Shown here in pieces: positions 1-62,243 of a stretch of DNA of 64,000 nucleotides. Position numbers and translations under genes: made by a program. Origin of the DNA: Polytrichum commune. Taxonomy: Eukaryota > Streptophyta > Polytrichopsida > Polytrichales > Polytrichaceae. The DNA lies in assembly GCA_950295325.1 (NCBI GenBank), contig OX485807.1, forward strand, positions 17,951,666-18,015,665. Direction: 5' to 3'. Under the pieces are notes generated by a model. The model did no database searches, was not told the DNA's origin, and worked only from the letters and a program-made list of their open reading frames with translations. The first letter of the stretch is position 1. The number at the start of each line of letters is the position of its first letter.

Positions 1-2140
1 TCAAACTATGGGCAGGGGAGTTCTTTATAATCCGAGCTTATGTTATATTCTTGGCCGAAGAAGGTGAGATTGAATTGAGAGAAAATGAGAAGCAGTGAGA
101 GCGAGAGTTATCAGCGAGTAAATCAAAATTGGTGTAACAATGAGCATACGGAGGGAAGTGGAATATAGTTGCACCTATTGGTCTCGTAAACTGAGAGGGT
201 AAATCGATCGATTGTGAGAGAAACCTGTGGTCGAATTGAGAAATAGATCTGGAAGAAAAGATAGAATTCAAGAGAGGAATGACGAGAGGGAGAGAAGAGG
301 CATAAAACTATGGACAGAGGAATTGAAAGAACATAGTTGAACCATGGCCAAGTGGTAGAAGAAGTTGGAAATTTGAGCGTCAGCCTGGAGTGGAACTTAT
401 GAGCGAGGGACCCTGTGAGAAGGCAGAGCCGAGTGAGAATGATAGAAGAGAGGAAGCGAGAGAGTCTGGCAGAAGGCCAAGTGTCAGAGCCGAGAGTTAA
501 TCAACATATAGTGTCACTATGGGCTATTGTTGAGACTTAAGTTAAACATTGAGGTGAAGTGTAAGGCCAAAGGCCCGCCCACGAGGTGAAATGATTATTG
601 TTAACCAGAAGAGAGGCAGAAAAGAGTGAGGTGACGATAGTGCGGCCGAAAAGAGATCATAGTTGAATTTGATATCTTAGGCTGTTAGAGTTATCATTTG
701 AAAAGTGAGTTTAAGGAGAGAATCTTAATCAATTGAAGTGATGAGAAATCACTTCTGATCAATTGATTAGGAAGAAAAATGAGAGATATAAGAGAGATTC
801 AATGAACTTAGAATAGGATTAACTTTGGAGTATAAAGGAAACCTAGGCATAAGTTAATCTCATTCCAATTGAAGTGTGAGTCGATAATTAGTCAAGAGAT
901 TAGGTCTTTGAGTACGAAGTGCAAATAAATATTATCAATTATTATCTGGTGTGTTACCCTGGTTATTGTTGTTTGCAGGATTGCAGGGCAACCAAGATTA
1001 TAGCTTTACCGCAAAAGATAAATAATAGCATAAGTTGTAAGTGATAACTAAAGCGGAATTAAGGAATAAACACATTATCTTGTATTGAAATTAACCTTGA
1101 CCAACTAATTAAGGAATTGCTTTTGGATTGAAGATGCATTGGCCAATGGTTATCAAAGACAATTGTGTTACTCAAAGACTATTGTTCTACTCAAATCTCA
1201 TGGCGAGATGGTTACTACTGAGACTGACACACATACCCTACTGAATGAGACACAGTGAGAGGAAATCAAGAGAGAGAAAGAGAGTGAAAGACATACCAGT
1301 CATGTTCTAGAGTGAATATAGCAAACTCTTTGGTCTAATTACTGAACTATGAAGTGACAAATGCCTGTAATAGACACTAGTTAAGCCTTCCTTGAGAGTC
1401 TGTACCCTAGTGTTTTGGGTTATTTAAGTGAGAGCAAAAACTAACTACATGACGCTTTCCTTATGAATGTGGGAACACACTCTTAGGAACCCCCCCCCTC
1501 CCCCTGTTGGCAAAAAAATTAAAATTCCATTCCCACGTGCCCATGCAAATACCTCACCATATTTAAATATAAAATAAGATTATCACCTCCAACTCTTCAC
1601 AAACACCTCCCCAATTTACCAAAGAAACTTCTAACCTTGACTTCATAGAATTCATCTTCTGCCAAGATCAAAAGCCCACAACAACAATACAACCCAAAAA
1701 ACCAAATACCAAACCTCGTTGGATACACTAAAAAATGTCAGTTGGTATGTCACCCTTATCATCATCACAACAAGTATTTGTAAAGGCATCAACACGTATT
1801 GCATCACTAAATAATTCGCACAATGCTACATCCCCTTCATGCCTACTCATGTGTGTATGCAACAATTTGAGCTCACAACTATGATCAAGATGAAGTTGCC
1901 CTCATTCTTGCCAACACTGCATGTTGGTGTCATTTTTTTCACTCTTTGTTGGTGAAGACCGACTCAATGAGCAATACTTTCTAATCAATGCCCACCCACA
2001 TGGGCACTTACAGATTTAGAATGAGAGGGAGTGAATGAGGGGAGTTATTAAAGGTATCTTTATTTCTACCCCTGGTAGAACTAGTCATTCCTACAAGATT
2101 GTCTATTACCTTCTTTTAATACTACATGACTCATCCACTA
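1..2140. other. Intergenic, no gene seen
   Basis: No credible gene is visible; open frames are short and unlike known families. The first 500 bases and about 1255-1300 are purine-rich on the plus strand, with many GAGAG runs. A short poly-C tract lies near 1491-1506. This may be old transposon debris, but no terminal repeats were recognised. Confidence 0.5.
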
Positions 2141-2404
2141 CACTAAATAGGATAGTTGGTGTTTGATTAGTTTTAGTGTTGTTACCACCCTACCTTGCTC
2201 AACACTAATTTTCAATTCCTTGACAAATTGTGTTAGACATAAATGTGCGCTACCTTCCCTACTGCCACCTTCCTTATTATATATATATTTTCATACCCTT
2301 ACTAACACTAAATTCAAACATGTAACTTCCACATATTACCATAGTTGATATTTGGTGTATGTGTTCGTATTTAGTGTATCAAACACTAAATATCCTATTT
2401 AGTG
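2141..2404. mobile_element. MITE with CACTAAATAGGAT termini, copy 1
   Basis: A 264-base non-autonomous element. It begins CACTAAATAGGATAG and ends with the inverse (CTATTTAGTG); the terminal match runs about 27 bases with few mismatches. TA lies directly on both sides, consistent with a TA target duplication. Just inside the right end is a second palindrome, TTAGTGTATCAAACACTAA, so the right end can fold on itself. A second, longer copy lies at 23601-23918, so the family is dispersed. No coding capacity. A TA duplication fits Tc1/mariner-type elements; the leading CACTA is probably coincidental because CACTA elements duplicate three bases. Confidence 0.75.
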
Positions 2405-3313
2405 TACCAAATTGGTAACACAATTGAGATGTATGACATCTACTACTGTTGTTGCACTTGTGGCACTATGTTCATCTGTTTTAAACTCACCAATATCAGG
2501 CCTTACATGTAGTAAGTCCAAGTCCTACATGTAGATGACTTCATTTCTTATAAGTATTAATTCCTCTAAAGACCAATACTCTCAATACTACCCTTTGTTG
2601 GTAGTCATAGCTACCGCTAAAGTGACTACCAACTCTCGATCCTACTAGGGTGAGTTTCCATTTAGGTTGCTCGATTCTAGGTAATAGTGGGTTGGAGGTG
2701 TTTTTGTAGATAAGCACAAGTTGCCAACCGACCACGTTTTGGTGGCCCACTAGAATGTGGAGGGCTATGGACATGGCATGCTAGACTTCCATGCATTCAT
2801 TGAAGCATTTTTAACCTACAAGTGCTAGTCACCGAAGAATTTGAAGATCAACGGTCTAGAACTTTATCATGGCTAACATGGAGGAGGAAGTTAGTAAGTG
2901 GACCCGGATTTGAGAAGATGAGAGTAGTTAGACTAGATATGTCATATTTAGTGTCATTATTTAGTGTCATATGGTATTTAATGTCACTACGGTGACTTCT
3001 CGATGCCACTTCTCACGAATAAGTGAACACATATTGTCATGGATGATAGATGAGTTCATCCATTGGCATTTCTTAGGTAACACAATACCTCCGGAGGTCC
3101 ATGTTGGTCAAGTGAAGATTCCTCAACTTAAACTACTAACATAACCACCTCTTATATAGATTCAAAACCTAACATTCATGCTAGATACCCAAATCATACA
3201 CATCCACACTCAATCCCAATAGAGCACATCTTATTGCTCCATATATTCCACAAAGAGGTCAACTATTACAATACTCAAAATGGCTACCCTCAACACATTG
3301 TTCCTTTGCATAA
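2405..3313. other. Intergenic, no gene seen
   Basis: No gene is supported. Around 2940-2985 there are scattered ATTTAGTGTCA-like words resembling the ends of the neighbouring MITE family, which may be an eroded further copy. Confidence 0.4.
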
Positions 3314-3700
3314 GGGCCGGTTTACGTGGGGTTCCAAGTCCTAAGTCCCAAGTAACTTGAGGTCAATCCATGCAATCTCAGTTGTTGAGAGCATGGAAGT
3401 TGGAACTTACCAGTTTACATTATTCCGAGGTCTTAAGTCCCAATTATGACATGGATGCCTACATGGCAACCATTTTTGGAGGCAAGGCTCGGGACTTGTG
3501 TTGAGAGTTGGGTCAAGCAAAAAGCTAGGCCCAACTCTCAACACAAGGACATGTAATGTTTTGCTTAAAATAACCAATACATGACATTAATGGATATAAA
3601 TCATTCTCTCATGAGGCTCATAAGTTGGAAATTTGCCTCCATGTTGGGACTTGCTTACAGGAATGAGACTTGGGACTCGGGGCCCCATGTGAACCAACCT
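3314..3700. mobile_element. PIF/Harbinger (Tourist)-like MITE
   Basis: A 387-base element. It starts GGGCCGGTTTACGTGGGG, and the reverse complement of its end is AGGTTGGTTCACATGGGG. It is flanked by TAA (3311-3313) and TGA (3701-3703), an eroded three-base duplication of the TWA type used by PIF/Harbinger transposons. Tourist-type termini also start GGGCC or GGGGTTG followed by TGTTT-like sequence. Fragments with the same termini occur at 48433 and 50107. No open frame; it would depend on a transposase encoded elsewhere. Confidence 0.72.
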
Positions 3701-3703
3701 TGA

Positions 3704-4799
3704 ATACCGTCCTAAGCATAGTGACAACCCTCATAACCCTATCACTTCCTTAAGCACCCATCAAAATTGGTGGTTCTTCTTTAAAGAAGAGTCTAATCCT
3801 TATTTTTAACACTTTTAGAAATCATTTTTCCTAATGTTTAACTTACTATGATAAAATAAGCTCTACCATTACCATAAGCATACAAGGAGGAAAGCAATTC
3901 TCCTCGAGCCTATTACAAACCCTCCCCCTATTTTACCCTCATTTTATAATATAAAAACATTCATAGAAATGTATAAACCAATACTTTAAGTGATTTACTT
4001 GTTATGGTGTAAGTGATTCACCACATATTCACCTTAGATATGATTGGTGGAGGCCCAACTCAAATAACACGAGATGCAGGCCTTGTCCTCTTGCCCACAT
4101 GCATGGACACGTACAACAATAACATATTCACAATGAGGGAGTGTGGACAAATGGACCATAGGGAAGAAGAAAATAATTATCCATGAGCCCTTTAATAACC
4201 CTTCCTCTCTCTCTTACTCTCATATTATGTGTAATGTCACATCTATATATCAGTTTGTTGTTTATGTGTGTATCAAAACATTACTCATCCTTTCACTCTT
4301 GCTACTTTTCTAAACGGGGAGTCAACAATGAAAAGTTGCCGAACTTTCTCAATGGATTCGTACTCATGCACTTGTCATGCCTAGCTTGTTGTTGGCTTTG
4401 CATGCAAGACTTGTTGTATAGAATCTCTCTCTCTCTACACAATTGCACATGTGGTGATAGCCTACTCAAACTTAATGGTTTGAACCACTAGTGGATGACT
4501 CATATCAACATTGGTTATATCTAATGGCTCTCACTTGTGAAATGGAAGCAAAGAGTGGCCATTGATGACAGGAGCCATTCGCTAGTGGCTCACACTAGCA
4601 AGTGTGGGTGGGCAATGAGTTGTTGAGCCACGTGTACCATGGCTTCGCAAGGTGAACATTATTCAGGTTGACATGCGCTCGAAAAGGGGGAGAGGTCGGA
4701 ATAAGTGGGGCACAATGTCTACTAGATTCCCGGACCCACAATGCAATGGCCCACAACTGAGTAATGTTATGATCTAAAGCAGCCATGCCTTAGATGGAT
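3704..4799. other. Intergenic, no gene seen
   Basis: No gene recognised. The 102-codon plus-strand open frame at 4183-4491 has no recognisable domain and is probably chance. Confidence 0.4.
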
Positions 4800-51018: not shown

Positions 51019-51294
51019 AGTCGCTCTGGCCCCAGCAGTGATGACAATAAGTGGTTCAATTTTCCATCCTTTGGAAGCAATGCTGGCAATTAGTGGGCTG
51101 TATTTGTTATTTTTTGCTTCAATTGCTTCTGGGGAGAATCTGTCATTGCAATATGTGAATTCAATGAATTGTATGGTAAGGTTAGGGTCGACATCGTTGG
51201 GGGGGGGGGCATTTTGATATGTTAGTCCTTTAACACATAGGATATCAGGTCTAAATCTTGCGTTACAGTGACATCTTTGTGTACTACATGTGCA
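51019..51294 (-). other. RLE-like endonuclease domain (ORF2 C-terminus)
   Basis: Follows the CCHC knuckle. RPD (51244-51252) is followed 27 residues later by EFT (Glu at 51160-51162) and then by an EAxNNKY segment, as in the PD-(D/E)XK restriction-like endonucleases of R2, NeSL and CRE LINEs, where the catalytic lysine is displaced downstream. A hydrophobic PLIVITAGA strand comes next. RLE nicks target DNA. By-eye assignment; a structure-based comparison would settle it. Confidence 0.65.
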
Positions 51295-51462
51295 GGGGAG
51301 TAGCCAATTGGGGACTGTGTTTTCTTGGGGATTGTTATTGAAGGTGCCAACATTCATGAGAGTAAAGCATCGGGATTTTTCTGATGAGATTAGGAGCTTC
51401 CTAATTTCTCCGACTGCTTTGTTATGTCTTTTAACTCTAAGTGAGTGTATATGTTGGTGTTT

Positions 51463-51519
51463 ACATGTAAGTAATACATGTATCCATGTATCTGGTTCAT
51501 TTGAGTTGCATATGGGGCA
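51463..51519 (-). other. CCHC zinc knuckle
   Basis: CPIC, nine residues, His, four residues, Cys. This closely matches the CX2CX(7-8)HX4C motif that precedes RLE in early-branching LINEs. It is also compatible with the zf-RVT type found in plant L1 elements. Confidence 0.75.
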
Positions 51520-51879: not shown

Positions 51880-52320
51880 TAATTCTAATCCTTTTTTGGC
51901 TAGTTTGTCTGCTTTTTCATTGCCTTCAATGTTGACGTGTGCTCTAACTTTGTATAGTGTAATTGGTTGTGTCATTTTTTGAAGAATTTTAACCATGGAG
52001 GCTAATGTGGTTTGGTCTGGGTGACTATTATGAAGTGTGGGGTGTTTAATTTGAGTGTTAAGTAGGTATAATACATTTAGACTGTCTGTGAATATGTATG
52101 CGGGTTCGTTGGGAAACTGTGCGTTGATAATGCTTAGTGCTTCGTGTATAGCAATCATTTCTGCTCGTAATATGTTTTGATGTCCATGTAATCTATTGGC
52201 GATGTTTAGCCCTTTGGGGCTGTAGATACCGTATCCAGCTCTTTCTCTTTTCCATTCCCCGGGGGCTATTTCTTTGGGTTTCATAAAGGAGCCATCAGTG
52301 TAGTAGCTGAATTGGGGGTG
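51880..52320 (-). other. RNase H domain
   Basis: Type I RNase H fold with motifs YYTDGSF, LRAEMIAIHEAL, YIFTDSLNVL and HVNIEGNEKADKLAK. The four catalytic acids Asp, Glu, Asp and Asp are all present, as is the conserved His before the last motif. It removes the RNA strand of the cDNA hybrid. In LINEs it is found in the I, R1, LOA and Dualen clades and in some plant L1. Confidence 0.9.
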
Positions 52321-53724
52321 GAATTTTAGTGGTAGGTTTGTTTGGTAGTTTGGGAGTTGTGGGATGGGGATGTTATCGTTTGGGGGTATATTTGGGTAGT
52401 TTGATTTAGACCATTTTTTACTAGAGTTCACTGTGATGTTTGAAAGGGTGGGTGGTGCAATTTGGGTGTGACTTTGTAGTATTTGGAGATTGTCTGCTAT
52501 GTCCTTTAGTAGTTTCATTTGTTCATAGGTGCCTATGTTATTGTTTTGGTGGTGGATACAAAATATTTTAGGGTAGACGGTTCTTTTCTTGTAATATTGA
52601 GTTCGGGAGGTATTGTGGGTTCTTCATATGCAATCGTATCGGCTGCAAAGTGGGCAATTATGTGTGTGTCCAGGAATGGACCTACGGGCGGGTTTGGGTT
52701 TTTGTACCAGTCGGTATCCGGAGATATAAGTATAGTGATTGTATGTGGATCATTTTGGGCCGCCATTCGAGCCCAGTGAATGGCTTGTTGTAGGTTTGTT
52801 TCGTTGTGGGGGTGAGTGTATCCTATTCCTTGCCATTTGTGGTCAAATGTTTTCCCTAAGGATCCAAATATTATGTCACGCGAGAATGGCGAGTAGAAAT
52901 GGGTGAGTTGTGTGGGGCATGTCACTGGGGATGAGAAGTATGACTGGTTGATATTGAATGTGGTTATTAGGAGATCCAATATTGGGGTTGGTATTGTATA
53001 TTGGGCACGTTTGAGTGGGTCACTTTTCGGGATTCGGTATTTGTATCTTTGATATAACCAGACAATTTCGGTTTCGAAAGATTGGGTGGGCGGTTCTAGC
53101 CCATGTGTGGTGTTTTTTGCCAATTGGTATTGTTTCCATAACCACATTAGTCTAGTTTTCGGGATGGTGATGAGGTGCCTACCATTATCCTCGTATATGT
53201 GAGCGACGTCAAATTGTATTTGGATTGTATCGGAGTTGGTTTCGATGTCATTTTCTGGGTTGCATTCATTAATAGAGATATGTGCTAGTGGGATTATATT
53301 GGTAGGTATGACATATCTCGTGTCTCTTTGTTGTTATGTGGAGAAGTGGGCATTAATAATGTTTGAGAAGTATTTGTGTTGTCTTTCCGTGTGGTAGTGG
53401 GTAAGTAGGGCGGTGTTGTGGTTGCAAGTGTTGGCATCGCAATAGGGATATAGGTCCCTTGGGGTTTGCCATTTGTTGTATGTGTGGTTATTTGTTGTAG
53501 TCCATTGACATAGGTATGACGTGACTGTTCTTTTTATTCCGTTATGGTCGGTAGATTGTTTTTGTTTGTGATCCAGTATTTTGTATTGTCGAGGGTCCTT
53601 AAGTATGTTGTTGGGGGGAGGGGGTAGAGGGGGGATGGGAGGGTTTGGGGGGTGTACGGGGGGAGTTGGTAGGTGAAGTAGAATGTTATGGTGTCTTAGT
53701 ATATATTTGTCTTTGAGGGATCTG

Positions 53725-54529: not shown

Positions 54530-55520
54530 TCCACTTGAGTGATGGTGCAAGATTTATTCCTAGGTATGTGTAGGGTTCGTGTTGGTTTAGGACTGGTATA
54601 GGTTGGTTTCTATAGTTTATGTTGGTGGATTGGATTAGGGCCTTGAAGGTTGTGGGGTTAAGTTTAGATTTGCTTGGACATCTTGTTACTACGCATTTTG
54701 GTATTCCTAGATCCATTCCTGCCCATTTGCAGAATTTGTCTAGTTTATGTAATTGTGTTTATAGTGTCTCTAGTTTGTTGGCTATTGCTGTAAGATCATC
54801 TGCATATGCTGCTGATGAGATTTTGATTCTAGATGTACCGAAAGTATATCCATTGTTTCCTTGTTGCAGCCATCTGAGTAGGGGCTCTAGAAATATGATG
54901 AATAAGTATGGGCTAAGGGTATCGCCTTGTATTGTACCTCTTTGGATATGGATTGGTAGGGTTTTTCTGAAGTGTTCGCCAGTAAATATGGTTGAAGATT
55001 GTGAGTATATGTTTCCTATGAGGTTTATTGAGTCAGTGGGGTAACCCAAGTCTTTCATTATGGCTAAGAGTCTGGCGTGGTCAATGGAGCCAAAGGCGTT
55101 TTTGAAGTCAATGTAGAGAATATATATATCTTGATTTGTGAGTCTTGCGTCTTCAAGCGCTGCGATTAGTATTTGGATTTGTCTGGAGGTGCTTCTTTCT
55201 GCTCTGAACCCTTCTTGGCTATCGTGTAGTATTTGGTATCTTTCTCCGTATGCTGATAGGATAGAGGTTAGTGTACTTATGTAAAATTTATATATGGTGT
55301 TAGCTAGTGCAATAGGTCTGTGATTTGTTAGTTGTGATGGGTTGCTTTTTTTGTATAATAAAACTGTTAGGCTAGTTTTCCATGATGCGGGAATTTGTTT
55401 TTGTTTATAGCAGTGCTTAAAGAATAGGAAAAGTAGTTTGTAAAAGCGCGGAGGCATATTTTTGAGAATTGAGTTGGGAATTTTGTCTGGGCCTGGGGCT
55501 TTATTATTATTTAGGTTTTT
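54530..55520 (-). other. Reverse transcriptase domain
   Basis: All core motifs are present: KAPGPDKIP (motif 0/1), NHRPIALANTIYKFY (motif 2), QEGFRAERS, LYIDFKNAFGSIDH (motif A), GTIQGDTLSPYLF (motif B), AAYADDL (motif C, catalytic YADD), a motif D Trp-Gly-Leu-Lys pattern and YLGINL (motif E). The reading frame is single from 55829 but interrupted by a TAA at 54759-54761, between motifs C and D. That stop lies where a Gln codon (CAA) would fit a single C-to-T change. Confidence 0.95.
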
Positions 55521-56439: not shown

Positions 56440-57215
56440 TGGGATGTGTAATGTGACCGGATAGTGATCAGAATTTAGATTCATGTTTGTGTTTGTAGTG
56501 GAGGTAAATTTGCTGTTGTCTGGGGAGTGAATGTAGAAACCATCTATTAGGCTTGATGATGTGTAGTTGTAGCCACCTTGTCTTGAGATACTAGTGTTGG
56601 TTTGAATATATTCTAAGTTGAGAGATGTGGTGAAGTTTTTCCATTGGAAGTCTTCTTCTTGTGGGGGGGTGTTAGTGTTGTTATTTTGTCTGCCCCTGAG
56701 TGCAATATCTCTGTTAAAGTCACCGCAGAGTATATATATGTGATTGGGGTGTATAGTGATTTCGTTAGTGATTTCGTTCTTAAGGTGTGGGATAAGACAT
56801 GTGTCTTCTAAGTACGTGGGCATATACATGTGTATGATTAGCCAAGGTATTAGTGGGTGGTTATTTATTTTTATTATTTGGAGATATGGGGAGATGTTTG
56901 CTGGTGTGGGGATTTTGGTGACATTTCCCGGGAGTGCATATTTATGATGGATAAGTGTAAGTAGGCCACCTCTTCCAGGGGTATAAGGCATCATTTGTTG
57001 GATGCACCTTGTGAGTGCGTGTGTGTTGTTGAAAATGAGTTTGAATTCCGGGAATAGGTTTTGTATATATTTCGTAGATTTGTTTGCAGTAAGTTTGGTT
57101 TCTTGGATATGTACAATTGCTGTGTTGTTTAGAGAGTTGTTTATTAAGCTTTGTAGGTTTGGTAATGATGTGTTGAGTGATGACGCATTCCAAGTTATTA
57201 TGGTCGTTTCATGTT
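56440..57215 (-). other. AP-type endonuclease domain
   Basis: Contains the exonuclease-endonuclease-phosphatase signatures in order: TWNASSL (Asn), IQETKL (catalytic Glu), GRGG, IIHMYMP (Tyr), LCGDFNRD (Asp and Asn), SLIDGFYI and LNSDHYPV (Ser-Asp-His). It nicks the target strand to prime reverse transcription. It begins about 220 residues after the 2A motif, and is intact with no lesion in this part. Confidence 0.93.
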
Positions 57216-57852
57216 CGGTGTTGGTGTTTATTCTTGTGATTGGTATGGGAGCGGCTGGGATTGGGGGTGGGTGTGAGTATTCGCTGATGTTTTCTAAACA
57301 TCTAAGTGTTTCGGTTATCAACTGGTTTGGGAGGAAAGGGAATTCTTTCTTGAGGGTGGTTGATGTAAGTGTAGTTACTTGGTTGTGGATGAATTCGTAT
57401 ATTTTTGCGTGTATTGAGTTTTGAGGGAGTATTATATGTTGATTGTTTCCTATGAACGTTGTGTAGGGGTGCGGTGTCAGTATGTGTCGCTCGGGGGGGT
57501 TGGTGAGGTTAGCTAGTCTAATGATTAATGTGTTGGTCCATATGTTATTAAAGTGGTAATTTTGGGGTTGGGCTAGCATGTTATTGCATATGTTTATTGC
57601 GGGGTGGATGGTAATAATTAGGGCGTATAGCATATGGGTTGGTGGCGATTGGTTTTGTGTTTGGGTATAATGGTGTAGATGTGGGTATGTAGTGATTGCT
57701 TGGGGGTGTAGTGGGTGTGTGTGTTTTAGGATAGGGGCGAATGTATTTGCTAGGTGTTGGTATTCAGGTTGTAGTTTTATAGTATTTGGGATAAAATACG
57801 TGTTGGCTCTTTTTTTGTGTGTAATAGGGTGTGTTCGTAGAATATCAGGCAT

Positions 57853-57876
57853 TGGTCCTGGGTTAAGTTCGATGTC
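57853..57876 (-). other. 2A-type ribosome-skipping motif
   Basis: Codons encode DIELNPGP, preceded by DILDLLKCG. This fits the full 2A consensus D(V/I)ExNPGP, with the usual upstream Leu-rich helix. At such sites the ribosome releases the nascent chain after Gly and restarts at Pro, separating two proteins from one frame. Skipping would free the leader from a product starting PMPDIL that carries the AP endonuclease and everything downstream. 2A motifs are known in some AP-type LINEs (trypanosome L1Tc/ingi, sea urchin and other invertebrate elements), usually near the start of the ORF. Codons 890-897 counted from 60543. Confidence 0.9.
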
Positions 57877-58152
57877 CCCGCATTTTAGTAGATCTAGTAT
57901 GTCAATGAAGTAATATCCGTAGAATTGAAGTGTTTTTGGTTTTCTCATATTTATTTTTAGATATTTCAAAAATGTGAATTTGGTTGTGGTAAAGAGGTTA
58001 GGCATAGCGGGTGTGGTTTTTTCTACTAGTTCTGGTGAGAAGTGTGACGTTGCATTGTTTGTAGGTAGTGGGTTTGTTACTGAGTTAGGTTTCCAATTTT
58101 TTATGAAGTGGTATGTGTTATTTATGTGGCGAGGCCGGTAGGCCGAGGCCAT
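57853..58152 (-). repeat. ORF2 leader module 3 (ends at 2A)
   Basis: A 100-residue module starting MASAYRPRH, with NW-KP at residues 19-22 and ending exactly with the Pro of the 2A motif. It aligns without gaps to module 2. The start codon lies in a 34-base, GC-rich block (58125-58158) identical to that of module 2. Confidence 0.8.
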
Positions 58153-58199
58153 TTTGTTATTTGGGTAGGGATTGTATTTTGAATATGGGTGTTTATATT

Positions 58200-58860
58200 T
58201 TTGGTAGGGTTTGTATTTAGGGTGGAGGTGGTATTTGGAGTGGGGGTAAGGTGTGGGTTTTAGGTACAAGTTGTATGTAGGGTGAGGCTTGTGAGATTTT
58301 GAGTTAGATTGGGTTGCTTGTTTTGGTTGGTACCTATACGCTTGTTGGTATTTGTGTTTTGGGTATATTTTGGTTTTTGGATGAAGTTTATGTTTTAGGT
58401 GGACTCTATGATTTGGATGAAGCTTGTCCCTTGGATGAAGATTATGCTTTAGGTGAGGGCTATATCTTGGATGAGAATAGTATTGTGGGTGGGACCGGGG
58501 TGTTTTTTGTTTTAGGTGGGAATCTTGTTGTGGGGGGGATGTTATATTTCCTAATTGAGTGGGTAAAGGGCGTGTTTTGTTTGTTTTTGGGTTTTTCATG
58601 TTTTTGGTTTTAATTATGGTAATCGGGTTGGGTGGGGTGTGTGTGATGTTACTAGGTTGTTTAGGTGTGAGGGGAGGTTTAGGTTTAGGTTGTGTATTGT
58701 GGTTAGGATGTAAACTATGCTTTGGATGTGATTTGAGTTTAGGGTGGAATCTATTTCTTGATGAGTACTTGTATTGTGAGAGAGGCCATTGTACTTTTTG
58801 TTTTGGATGCGTAGTGTGTTGTGTTCGGGGGTTGTATTTTGTGTAGTTGTTAGTGTGATT
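58200..58860 (-). repeat. Hexapeptide (18-bp) repeats in ORF2 leader
   Basis: Successive units of the form H-(P/L)-K-H-x-x, for example HLKHNL, HPRDKL, HPNHRV, HLKHKL, HPKTKI and YPKHKY. The period is 18 bases at DNA level, with diverged units. Similar runs follow modules 1 and 2 and lie before module 1. The long stop-free run in AT-rich DNA suggests it has been translated. Confidence 0.7.
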
Positions 58861-59148
58861 TGGTACATTTATAAGTTTTATATTTGATGTACTTGAAATA
58901 ATAGGGAAGTATCTATATAGGTTAGTTGTTTTTGGTTGTGTCTTACTTGGTTTTTGATTTTTGATGAATGTTAGTTTTGTTGTAGAGGGGATGTGGTGTA
59001 GGGTGGGTATTATGTTTTCTTGTTGTTTAGGTAGGGGGTGTGAGTTCACATAGTATTTAGGTACTTGATTTGTCATTAAGGTCGGTTTCCAGTTGGTGAG
59101 GTGATTTTTTCGGTTAGTTTTGTGGCGAGGCCGGTAGGCCGAGGCCAT
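58849..59148 (-). repeat. ORF2 leader module 2 (2A lost or absent)
   Basis: Starts MASAYRPRHKTNRKNHL and keeps NWKP, QQENIIP, STTKLTFIK and TTNLYRYFP. Aligned with module 3 its final residues read NVPNHTN where module 3 has the 2A NPGP, so skipping should not occur here. Its ATG is in the second copy of the conserved 34-base block (59121-59154). Confidence 0.75.
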
Positions 59149-59669
59149 TTTGTTTGTTGGGTGTTGTTTGTATTTTGAGTAGGGGTCGGGTTGTGAGTGG
59201 GGGTAGAGTACGGATTTCTGTCGGGGTTTATGTTTAGGATGTAGTCTATTTTGTTGGCATGCCTTTAGGTTAGGGTGGGTTCCTTGTTCATGATGTGGGT
59301 TATGTTTTGGATGAGATATGTGTGTTGAGTGGCTTATGTGTTTTGAGTGGGATCCATGTCTTGGATGAAGGTAGTTCATTGGGTGTGGTATGTGTTTTGG
59401 GTACTTTCCGTAATTTGGGGTGTGTGTAATGTTACTTGATTGTTTAGATGTGATGGGGGGATTTAGTTGTGGGTGTGGCCTTTGTTTAGGGTGTATCCTA
59501 TATTTTAGATGCGGTTTGGATGTAGGATGAAGTTCGTTTCTTGTGAGGTGCCTACATTGTGAGTGGGGCTGTTGTATTTTGTGTTTTGGATGAGAAGTAT
59601 AGTTTGGATGTGTGGTGTGTTTTGTTCGGAGAGTATGTTTTGGGTTGTTGTTGTGTGGGTGGTTAGTGT

Positions 59670-59952
59670 AATTTGGTTTGTTTATAGATATTTGATTTAC
59701 ATTTGTTGTACTTGAGGTAGAGGGGTAGTATTTATGTAGGTTAGTTGTTTTGATTTTTGGTATTTTAATGAGTGCACGGTTAATTGTAGGGGTAGTGTGA
59801 TGTTGGGCGGGTATTATGTTTTCTTGTTGTTTGGTTAAGGGGTATGCGTTTGCATAGTGTTTAGATATTTGGTTTGTTATTGGGGTAGGTTTCCAATTAG
59901 TGAGGTGGAGTTTGCGGTTAGTATTGTGGCGAAGCCGGTAGGCCAGGGCCAT
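59670..59952 (-). repeat. ORF2 leader module 1 and likely start codon
   Basis: Starts MALAYRLRHNTNRKLHL and keeps NWKP, QQENIIP and the TTNLHKYYP block; it ends PNYTN, again without NPGP, and is several residues shorter. The ATG (59950-59952) is the first in-frame methionine codon of ORF2, in a favourable AAAATGG context. The conserved block here (59925-59958) has about three differences from the other two copies. Confidence 0.72.
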
Positions 59953-60599: not shown

Positions 60600-62243
60600 T
60601 TACATCCCGGTAAGTGCTAGGGTTAGAGTATTTTGGATGTCTAGCATTTGTTTTTTCATTTTGTCATTTATTTCGTCCGCATATATGTGTGCTTCTCTCA
60701 CAATATCATTTTTTAATTCTCTCATGTCTTTATGAAGCTCAAGTTTGAGTTTCTTGTTGCCTTCCTCAATAGCTTCTTTCATGACTGTAAAAACATCCCC
60801 TTTTGTAGCACTTTCCTCCCCTTGAGTTTGGTTTTGAATGGCTTCAATAGTGTTTACCAAACACGTATTGGTGTCTTCAAATCCAAATTTGATTAGTAAT
60901 TCCTTGGAGGGTTTGTCTATGCCTTCAATACTCCGGCGGTGAGGGGTAATTTCAACATGGTAAGTTCCGATTTTTACCTCTTTCCCTACAAATTTCCTAT
61001 ACACATAGGGTTTGAGGCATTCCACGTTGGCACTTCCGTTATGTCTCAAACCGTCTTGCTTGTGGAACCATATAGAAACAACATTCTTGGTTCCTAGTAT
61101 TTTGCAAATTTCTAATGAGGTGTCATCAATATTCATCAATATTGGGAGGTTGTAAAAGGTTAGAATAAGGGCCTCTTTTTTTGCCTTTTGCTCTAGTGTG
61201 AGAGAGGGGCCATTCTTTACTTGACCTTCAAGGATTTGGTGGTGTGTAGCTACTTGAAGAGTTTGGATTTTTTTGGCTTGAAGGGGGGTAGGGGCAACAA
61301 GATAGGCATGATTGTTAGCGGTGCTCTTTTGAACTTCAACAACCTCAAAATTGTGACCTCTTCTAAAGCTATTTTCTAGGACATCAAGAAAGAGAGCATG
61401 AGGTGTCAACCCAATTAGTGCATCATTTGAGATTTTGATAGAAAGATTGTTGCTCCTAGCAATGGAGTGGTATGACTTGCATACCTTGCCAAGGCTCCCA
61501 ACATTGGAGTGAGGTTCAAGTTGGAGGATGAAGGGTCTAAGACCCGTGAGTAGGGCTACTCCGTCGGTTTGAGGGTTAAGGAGGTGAAGTTTAACTATCC
61601 CAGCCCATACTCCTTTAACTCCTCCTCTCTTAATACTCATGCATAAGATTGAGATAGGTTCAATGAGGTTAGTACCAAGTGGAATGTGCATGTCAATTAG
61701 CCTTTCTTTAACAAGCTCCTTAATGTCATTGTGGAATAAGGGGTTGTTAGGGAGCTGAAAATGAATGGCAATTTGAAAATCTAAAGACATGCATGAAATG
61801 GGGTCGATTTCAATTTCGGATGGGAGCTGGGTGAGGTTAAGGTGTTGCCCCGGGAGTCCATCACTTCTCACACTTGGATACAAAATTTGTGGCACTCTTG
61901 GGTAGGAGATGCTTACGCTTTCAAGCTCCTCGGCTTCCTTACGAGGGATGCCCCTTGTAACTCTATCAGCAATGGTTTCATCTGAAAATAATTCCTCAAT
62001 CCCTTGCTCTATAGCTAGGTATTCCATGGTTTCAAAGCCTAACCACAATTTGAGTTTCTGGTTTAATGGAGTTTCGGTGGTGTGAATCCCGGTTCGGGGG
62101 GAGATTACCTTCTGGGTGTTTGAAGGCGGGGAAGCTCCTGCCCGGTCCCTGGACCTCTTCCCATTGGCTGCCGCTTTCGAGTTTGATTTAGCCTTCTATG
62201 CCAGCAGTTTTTTCAGACTTAGCGACGGGGAGTCTATCTCCAT
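60600..62243 (-). pseudogene. LINE ORF1 (RRM-like and coiled coil), one stop
   Basis: ORF1 protein of about 546 residues, which in LINEs binds the element RNA and forms the ribonucleoprotein. The start chosen is the ATG at 62241-62243 (ACCATGG context), beginning MEIDSPSLSLKKLLA. A TAG (62196-62198) follows after 15 codons, then the frame is open to the TAA at 60600-60602. The region after the stop is basic (KAKSNSKAAANGKRSRDRAG). At about residues 358-435 is an RRM-like segment with ILTFYNLP (RNP2-like) and HNGSANVECL (RNP1-like). Residues 483-540 form a charged coiled coil (KKLKLELHKDMRELKNDI). No CCHC knuckles seen. The base composition is balanced, in contrast to ORF2. An alternative is initiation downstream at METMEY-like methionines after the stop (ATG at about 62027). 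Confidence 0.8.

Follow-up and report, generated by a model that had tools for sequence, protein, structure and literature searches.

The window, that is, the whole 64,000-nucleotide stretch of Polytrichum commune DNA analysed here, carries on its minus strand a LINE that comprises ORF1, a leader, a 2A motif, a post-2A domain, an AP endonuclease (APE), a reverse transcriptase (RT), a PCIF1_WW-like domain, RNase H and a C-terminal block with a CCHC zinc finger and a PD...E...K signature, in that order. Its features in the direction of translation are as follows.

60603..62195, minus strand: ORF1, 531 codons stop to stop
58153..59952, minus strand: upstream leader with two more modules (ATGs at 59952 and 59148), K/H/P-rich, frame open
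57877..58152, minus strand: last leader module, which runs from its own ATG (MASAYRPRH...) as far as the 2A core; weakly constrained over the 77 codons that follow this ATG, dN/dS 0.61
57877..57918, minus strand: upstream 2A context GYYFIDILDLLKCG, 14 codons, conserved among copies, dN/dS 0.17
57853..57876, minus strand: 2A core octapeptide DIELNPGP, predicted skip between G and the last P
57205..57852, minus strand: post-2A domain (MPDILRTHP...), relatives of which served as queries without the 2A
56668..57198, minus strand: AP endonuclease, Pfam Exo_endo_phos, E 6.6e-5, 23.2 bits against a curated cut-off of 24.5
54768..55349, minus strand: reverse transcriptase, RVT_1, E 3.8e-23
52767..53105, minus strand: PCIF1_WW-like domain, Pfam PF12237, E 6.1e-10
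51886..52308, minus strand: RNase H, PF00075, E 4.8e-15
51100..51519, minus strand: CCHC zinc finger followed by PD...E...K...Y, a restriction-like endonuclease signature, by motif

ORF1 matched no Pfam family above cut-off. Like the window APE, the APEs of two relatives scored slightly under curated cut-offs (L039, Exo_endo_phos, E 3.4e-5; L021, Exo_endo_phos_2, E 1.4e-5), and the APE part had no match in the PDB at E 1. The solved structures nearest to the RT are R2 proteins, with L1 further down. We sought the CCHC and PD...E...K block by position in eight further copies from other families and found it in all eight; across the ten copies aligned, C106, C109, H119, C124, P196, D197, E225, K241, K244 and Y245 are invariant (window-copy numbering). 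Against solved structures, a profile of ten C-terminal sequences had its best match in R2, at the zinc finger, which was not significant (E 0.65), and a three-sequence profile had no match. Pfam searches of the ten C-terminal copies gave weak, scattered matches, the best being to an uncharacterised family in two of them (E 6e-4), and single-sequence structure predictions for the window were unusable (mean pLDDT of 31 for the C-terminal region and 34 for the post-2A/APE region). The PCIF1_WW-like domain lies between RT and RNase H and scored above cut-off in the window and in L166 (residues 618-711 of 284-4399:-). Its occurrence in a LINE seems unusual; a literature search for PCIF1 with non-LTR retrotransposons found no report.

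The window copy is damaged, as ORF2 beyond the APE is split by frame changes and stops. In two intact copies, on contigs C2 and C1, ORF2 is a single frame of 2625 codons with the motif at residues 278-285. These copies are 99.36% identical across 8834 nt, and a third copy shares the 2625-aa frame length. To judge from such near-identical intact sequences, the element family has probably moved recently.

Dualen/RandI is a group of non-LTR retrotransposons reportedly going back to Kojima and Fujiwara in 2005. The algal Dualen/RandI element carries a cysteine protease, for which the window element had no Pfam match. The group is defined by an APE plus a PD-(D/E)XK endonuclease (PMC3636483, PMC4640811), and RNase H is reported for it. 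On that definition we call the element Dualen/RandI-like, a label supported by domain make-up rather than RT phylogeny and with the C-terminal endonuclease recognised by motif only. The preliminary description had likewise suggested a Dualen/RandI-like element, which the domains support: an APE just under cut-off before the RT, RNase H, and a C-terminal CCHC and PD...E...K block invariant in ten copies. The element shares the APE and RNase H with the group, and its C-terminal block may correspond to the second, PD-(D/E)XK endonuclease; unlike Dualen/RandI in the descriptions consulted, it has a 2A, a PCIF1_WW-like domain and a leader.

The octapeptide DIELNPGP is encoded exactly by window positions 57876..57853 of the minus strand, in a frame that extends from 60561 to 56290 (1423 aa stop to stop) and locally reads ...YFIDILDLLKCG-DIELNPGP-MPDILRTH.... 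It fits the 2A/StopGo core (D/G/C/N)(V/I)ExNPGP, and the preceding LDLLKCG forms an L-rich context ending in CG before D12, judged by eye rather than with published motif matrices. A StopGo study describes L-rich classes that end in (A/S/C)G before D12, with G preferred at that last position (PMC12846837). The preliminary description had placed a motif matching every 2A consensus position, DIELNPGP after LLKCG, some 700-890 residues into the frame and between a repetitive leader and the APE. It indeed reads so in the minus-strand frame; its first residue is number 896 in the frame and comes 692 after the first in-frame Met (59952), and it lies between a 230-nt block occurring three times upstream and the Exo_endo_phos match downstream. 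The 895 codons upstream of the motif contain no stop in its own frame, compared with 42 and 60 in the other two. On these sequence grounds, the window motif is confirmed as a real 2A/StopGo-type site in a LINE ORF2.

We next asked whether the motif recurs at this position in related copies, a comparison that the preliminary description had proposed. A 590-residue query returned at least 75 matches at 72-100% identity (74 candidates scored of 1604). Leaving aside one match that begins past the site and one that is the second piece of another copy, we read 73 copies (L001-L030 and L043-L085), and the motif is retained in strict form, D(V/I)ExNPGP, in 61 and in expanded form in 63, with three broken. 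The octapeptides were DIEPNPGP (32), DIESNPGP (17), DIELNPGP (12) and DIKPNPGP (7), plus single cases of GIEPNPGP, NIEPNPGP, DIELNLGP, DIELNRGP and DIEPNPRP; in the context, L7 stands in 72 of the 73 copies, L8 in 73, C10 in 65 and G11 in 70. Because the copies are related by descent, these counts are not independent events. The dN/dS estimates draw on every one of the 30 cut loci, among them L002 and L026, whose motifs are altered, and on comparisons between four subfamilies; the resulting values, which include decay after insertion, were 0.016 for the core (seven codons, without x), 0.093 for the APE, 0.16 for the post-2A domain, 0.17 for the 14-codon context and 0.61 for the leader module before the motif.

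Beyond this family, we picked twelve further DIExNPGP places by eye for differing codons, and all twelve lie in or beside remnants of such elements, two of them (L040 and L042) with only a short in-frame piece. For sampling independent of the motif, the post-2A domain alone was used as query, taken from L039 (L-type) and L032 (M-type), which gave at least 151 and at least 150 matches, respectively. The L-type sample consists of the first 40 listed matches that start at query residue 4 or earlier, L039's own copy included. The M-type sample consists of 40 of the first 44 listed matches starting at residue 2 or earlier, with family-A copies and the query excluded; C6:32915821, C6:13415641, C5:26821261 and C1:66447861, the last being L037 (DIHPNPGP), fall outside it. 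A 2A octapeptide, intact or decayed, was recognisable before the post-2A domain at 79 of the 80 sites. The L-type sites comprised 15 strict motifs, 7 with H14, 13 NPGP sites with other changes and 5 decayed or lost; the M-type sites comprised 5 strict motifs, 24 with H14 and 11 others (3 DIEPHPGP and 1 DIHPHPGP, that is N16H, and 7 decayed). Over 79 sites, leaving out the frame-broken L103, position 14 was H in 38, E in 27, Q in 10, K in 3 and T in 1; D12 was present in 77, I/V13 in 79, N16 in 75 (H16 in 4), P17 in 74, G18 in 76 and P19 in 76. All four Pro codons are used for P17 across the sampled sites, most of which have an L-rich context with C-G or S-G as its last two residues. Judged by these comparisons, the motif is kept by selection at the protein level in well over a hundred copies.

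H14 or Q14 replaces E14 in many genome copies, and H14, N16H and Q14 recur in groups of copies with like contexts. In the part of the StopGo study available, H14 and N16H are rare but more than 95% active in their natural contexts, N16H placed into a foreign 2A context is only modestly active, and E14Q retains 26-56% activity; K14 is not named there as an active variant (PMC12846837). Seven of the 73 window-family copies have K14. Six of them (L047, L049, L050, L055, L059 and L060) share the context GG-DIKPNPGP and have open frames of 1076 to 2924 aa; the seventh is L062. Either K14 functions in this setting or those elements do without skipping, and the six like copies amount to a natural test of K at this position.

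Some families carry more than one site. In L039 a single frame holds two 2A sites, and a whole or partial post-2A domain comes after each; in L037 one frame holds four NPGP sites, whose position 14 is Q, E, Y and H. On contig C1, position 14 at the 95 DIxxNPGP places is E in 56, Q in 19, H in 14, K in 4, R in 1 and Y in 1, and 27 of these places fall into 12 same-strand clusters with neighbours less than 1 kb apart. Read in the direction of translation, Q14 comes first in 9 of the 12 clusters and H14 last in 9, with both in 6. As the C1 clusters share ancestry, the arrays are a trait of some families and not 12 events. Among 20 M-type sites for which we read 600 nt upstream, 10 had a second NPGP there (Q in 6, K in 2, H in 1 and E in 1), and all 10 end with H14.

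The leader of the window element contains the 230-nt block in three diverged copies, spaced 996 and 804 nt apart. Each carries an ATG (59952, 59148 and 58152, minus strand) in the setting AACAAAATGGCC and opens with MASAYRPRH or MALAYRLRH. Position -3 is A and position +4 is G at each of these ATGs, and the G+C-rich stretch right after them (GCCTCGGCCTACCGG or near) seems, by eye, better kept than its flanks. From the first module Met to the motif, the leader has 692 residues with 13% P, 12% K, 10% H and a net charge of +101. The upstream modules are at most candidates for decayed 2A copies: modules 2 and 3 of the window align as far as the 2A and only weakly past it, module 2 has no remaining 2A, and a second NPGP was absent from the window upstream leader (58153..59952, minus strand).

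On the whole, ORF2 of this plant-lineage Dualen/RandI-like LINE very probably contains a 2A (StopGo) site of the working type, which suggests that a single reading frame gives these elements more than one protein. At NPG|P, a ribosome within the leader frame would leave the bond between the last Gly and the Pro unmade, the basic, K/H/P-rich leader would be released at this point, and translation would continue into the protein that comprises APE, RT, RNase H and endonuclease, now with Pro at its N terminus. The 2A would thereby let the element keep its enzyme separate from a leader that evolves fast and varies in length. Where a family has more than one 2A site, the leader would itself be divided; the first site is often of a weaker type (Q14) and the one directly before the enzyme of a strong type (H14). 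To a fuller version of this scheme we give somewhat less than an even chance: a graded 2A polyprotein, in which leaky Q14 or K14 sites upstream and a tight H14 or E14 site before the enzyme would let one ORF2 yield a series of leader proteins at fixed ratios.

That the motif is an isolated chance match or DNA of another organism has a negligible probability, and nothing turned up in its favour. DIExNPGP is encoded at 267 places in the 408-Mb genome, compared with none for the reversed control, so the window motif is more than chance; DIxxNPGP gave 445 matches against 2, and the reversed controls of the three genome motif searches stood at 0, 0 and 2. These counts rule out a chance match, and copies lie on all seven large contigs of the assembly, which speaks against contamination. 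The genome has 58 Pfam matches to light-harvesting protein genes and four to the LEAFY SAM domain. LEAFY is not known outside streptophytes, and together these genes place the host in the plant lineage. Fourteen of the light-harvesting genes, with equal scores, form a cluster at C5:1751760-1846160, and weaker partial matches outside it may be ELIP-like. Another reading is a protein-level reason for conservation, such as a protease site or a turn in the structure where the enzyme begins, with no ribosome skipping at all. Conservation by itself cannot discriminate between the two, and long open frames persist in the K14 copies and in L002, which is 97% identical to the window and has a 2327-aa frame yet reads NLGP. 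However, the positions that are kept (G11, D12, I/V13 and N16-P19) and the one left free (x15) match the 2A pattern, the recurring changes H14 and N16H are ones reported active (PMC12846837), and the contexts before the motif differ between M and L element types. We consider a protein-level reason of this kind improbable.

A different question is where translation starts. If the long leader were untranslated and the enzyme frame began at the last-module ATG (MASAYRPRH), the 2A would trim only a short N-terminal piece. This ATG is present in 26 of the 29 copies that reach the module, in every case with -3 A and +4 G, and the weak constraint on the module is in keeping with such a start. Among 12 loci examined for the leader frame, 7 have a stop 70 to 196 codons upstream of the last module, but the other 5, including the window copy (L001), are open over all 500 codons examined, and the 895-codon opening upstream of the window motif exists in the motif frame only. 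Nor is the Met after the motif a general start: L090 alone has it out of the L-type sites read, and we rejected initiation there as a general reason for the site. In the two intact copies, 49 codons precede the first Met of the ORF2 frame, whose start overlaps the end of ORF1; the overlap is about 20 nt (L166 with L021, L167 with L024), and the window frames do not overlap. A start at the last module is, on balance, rather unlikely. It is compatible with a working 2A and can hold together with the main reading.

2A (StopGo) sequences in APE-type non-LTR retrotransposons were reportedly described by Heras in 2006 and Odon in 2013. The clades reported are L1Tc/Ingi of trypanosomes and Rex1, Crack, L2, L2A and CR1 of animals. 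Our search of the available literature found no report of a 2A in Dualen/RandI or in a plant-lineage retrotransposon. The present element shares with the 2A-bearing APE-type LINEs a 2A octapeptide within the LINE protein, and differs from them in its PD...E...K block, RNase H, PCIF1-like domain and ORF1, in the tandem 2A arrays of some families and in its plant-lineage host. Tandem sites are also known from picornaviruses, in which several 2A (NPGP) sites stand in a row and some differ in activity (PMC11512398). Two or more sites in tandem are thus common to both, whereas the arrays here lie in the leader of a retrotransposon, and half of the C1 clusters open with Q14 and close with H14. Sea urchin NLR proteins carry N-terminal 2A signal sequences (PMC4981915). 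There, too, a 2A lies near the N terminus and in a cellular genome, but the enzyme here is a retrotransposon protein.

StopGo is described as used mainly by RNA viruses and rarely by cells, with no evidence that plant viruses naturally use it (PMC12846837). The genome studied here, of the plant lineage, holds 2A-type motifs in the hundreds; those tested are under selection, and some families have them in arrays. They offer an independent natural record of tolerated 2A changes (H14, N16H, Q14 and perhaps K14) and a stock of 2A sequences suited to plant ribosomes. They also allow one to ask directly why LINEs take up 2A, whether to dispose of a fast-evolving leader or to fix the ratios between proteins. 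If graded arrays are real, they would be the first natural StopGo use in a plant lineage, and H14 and N16H would be lasting natural solutions outside viruses.

At the other end of the element, an Rfam search of the window had no match and a tRNA search in the 3' end of one copy found none. The 3' UTRs do share sequence within element types: a block of about 170-230 nt is 71-75% identical between M-type families (L166, L167, L174, L175 and L177), and another of about 125-140 nt is 78-86% identical among most L-type copies (L170-L173 and L176). These blocks are perhaps RT recognition structures.
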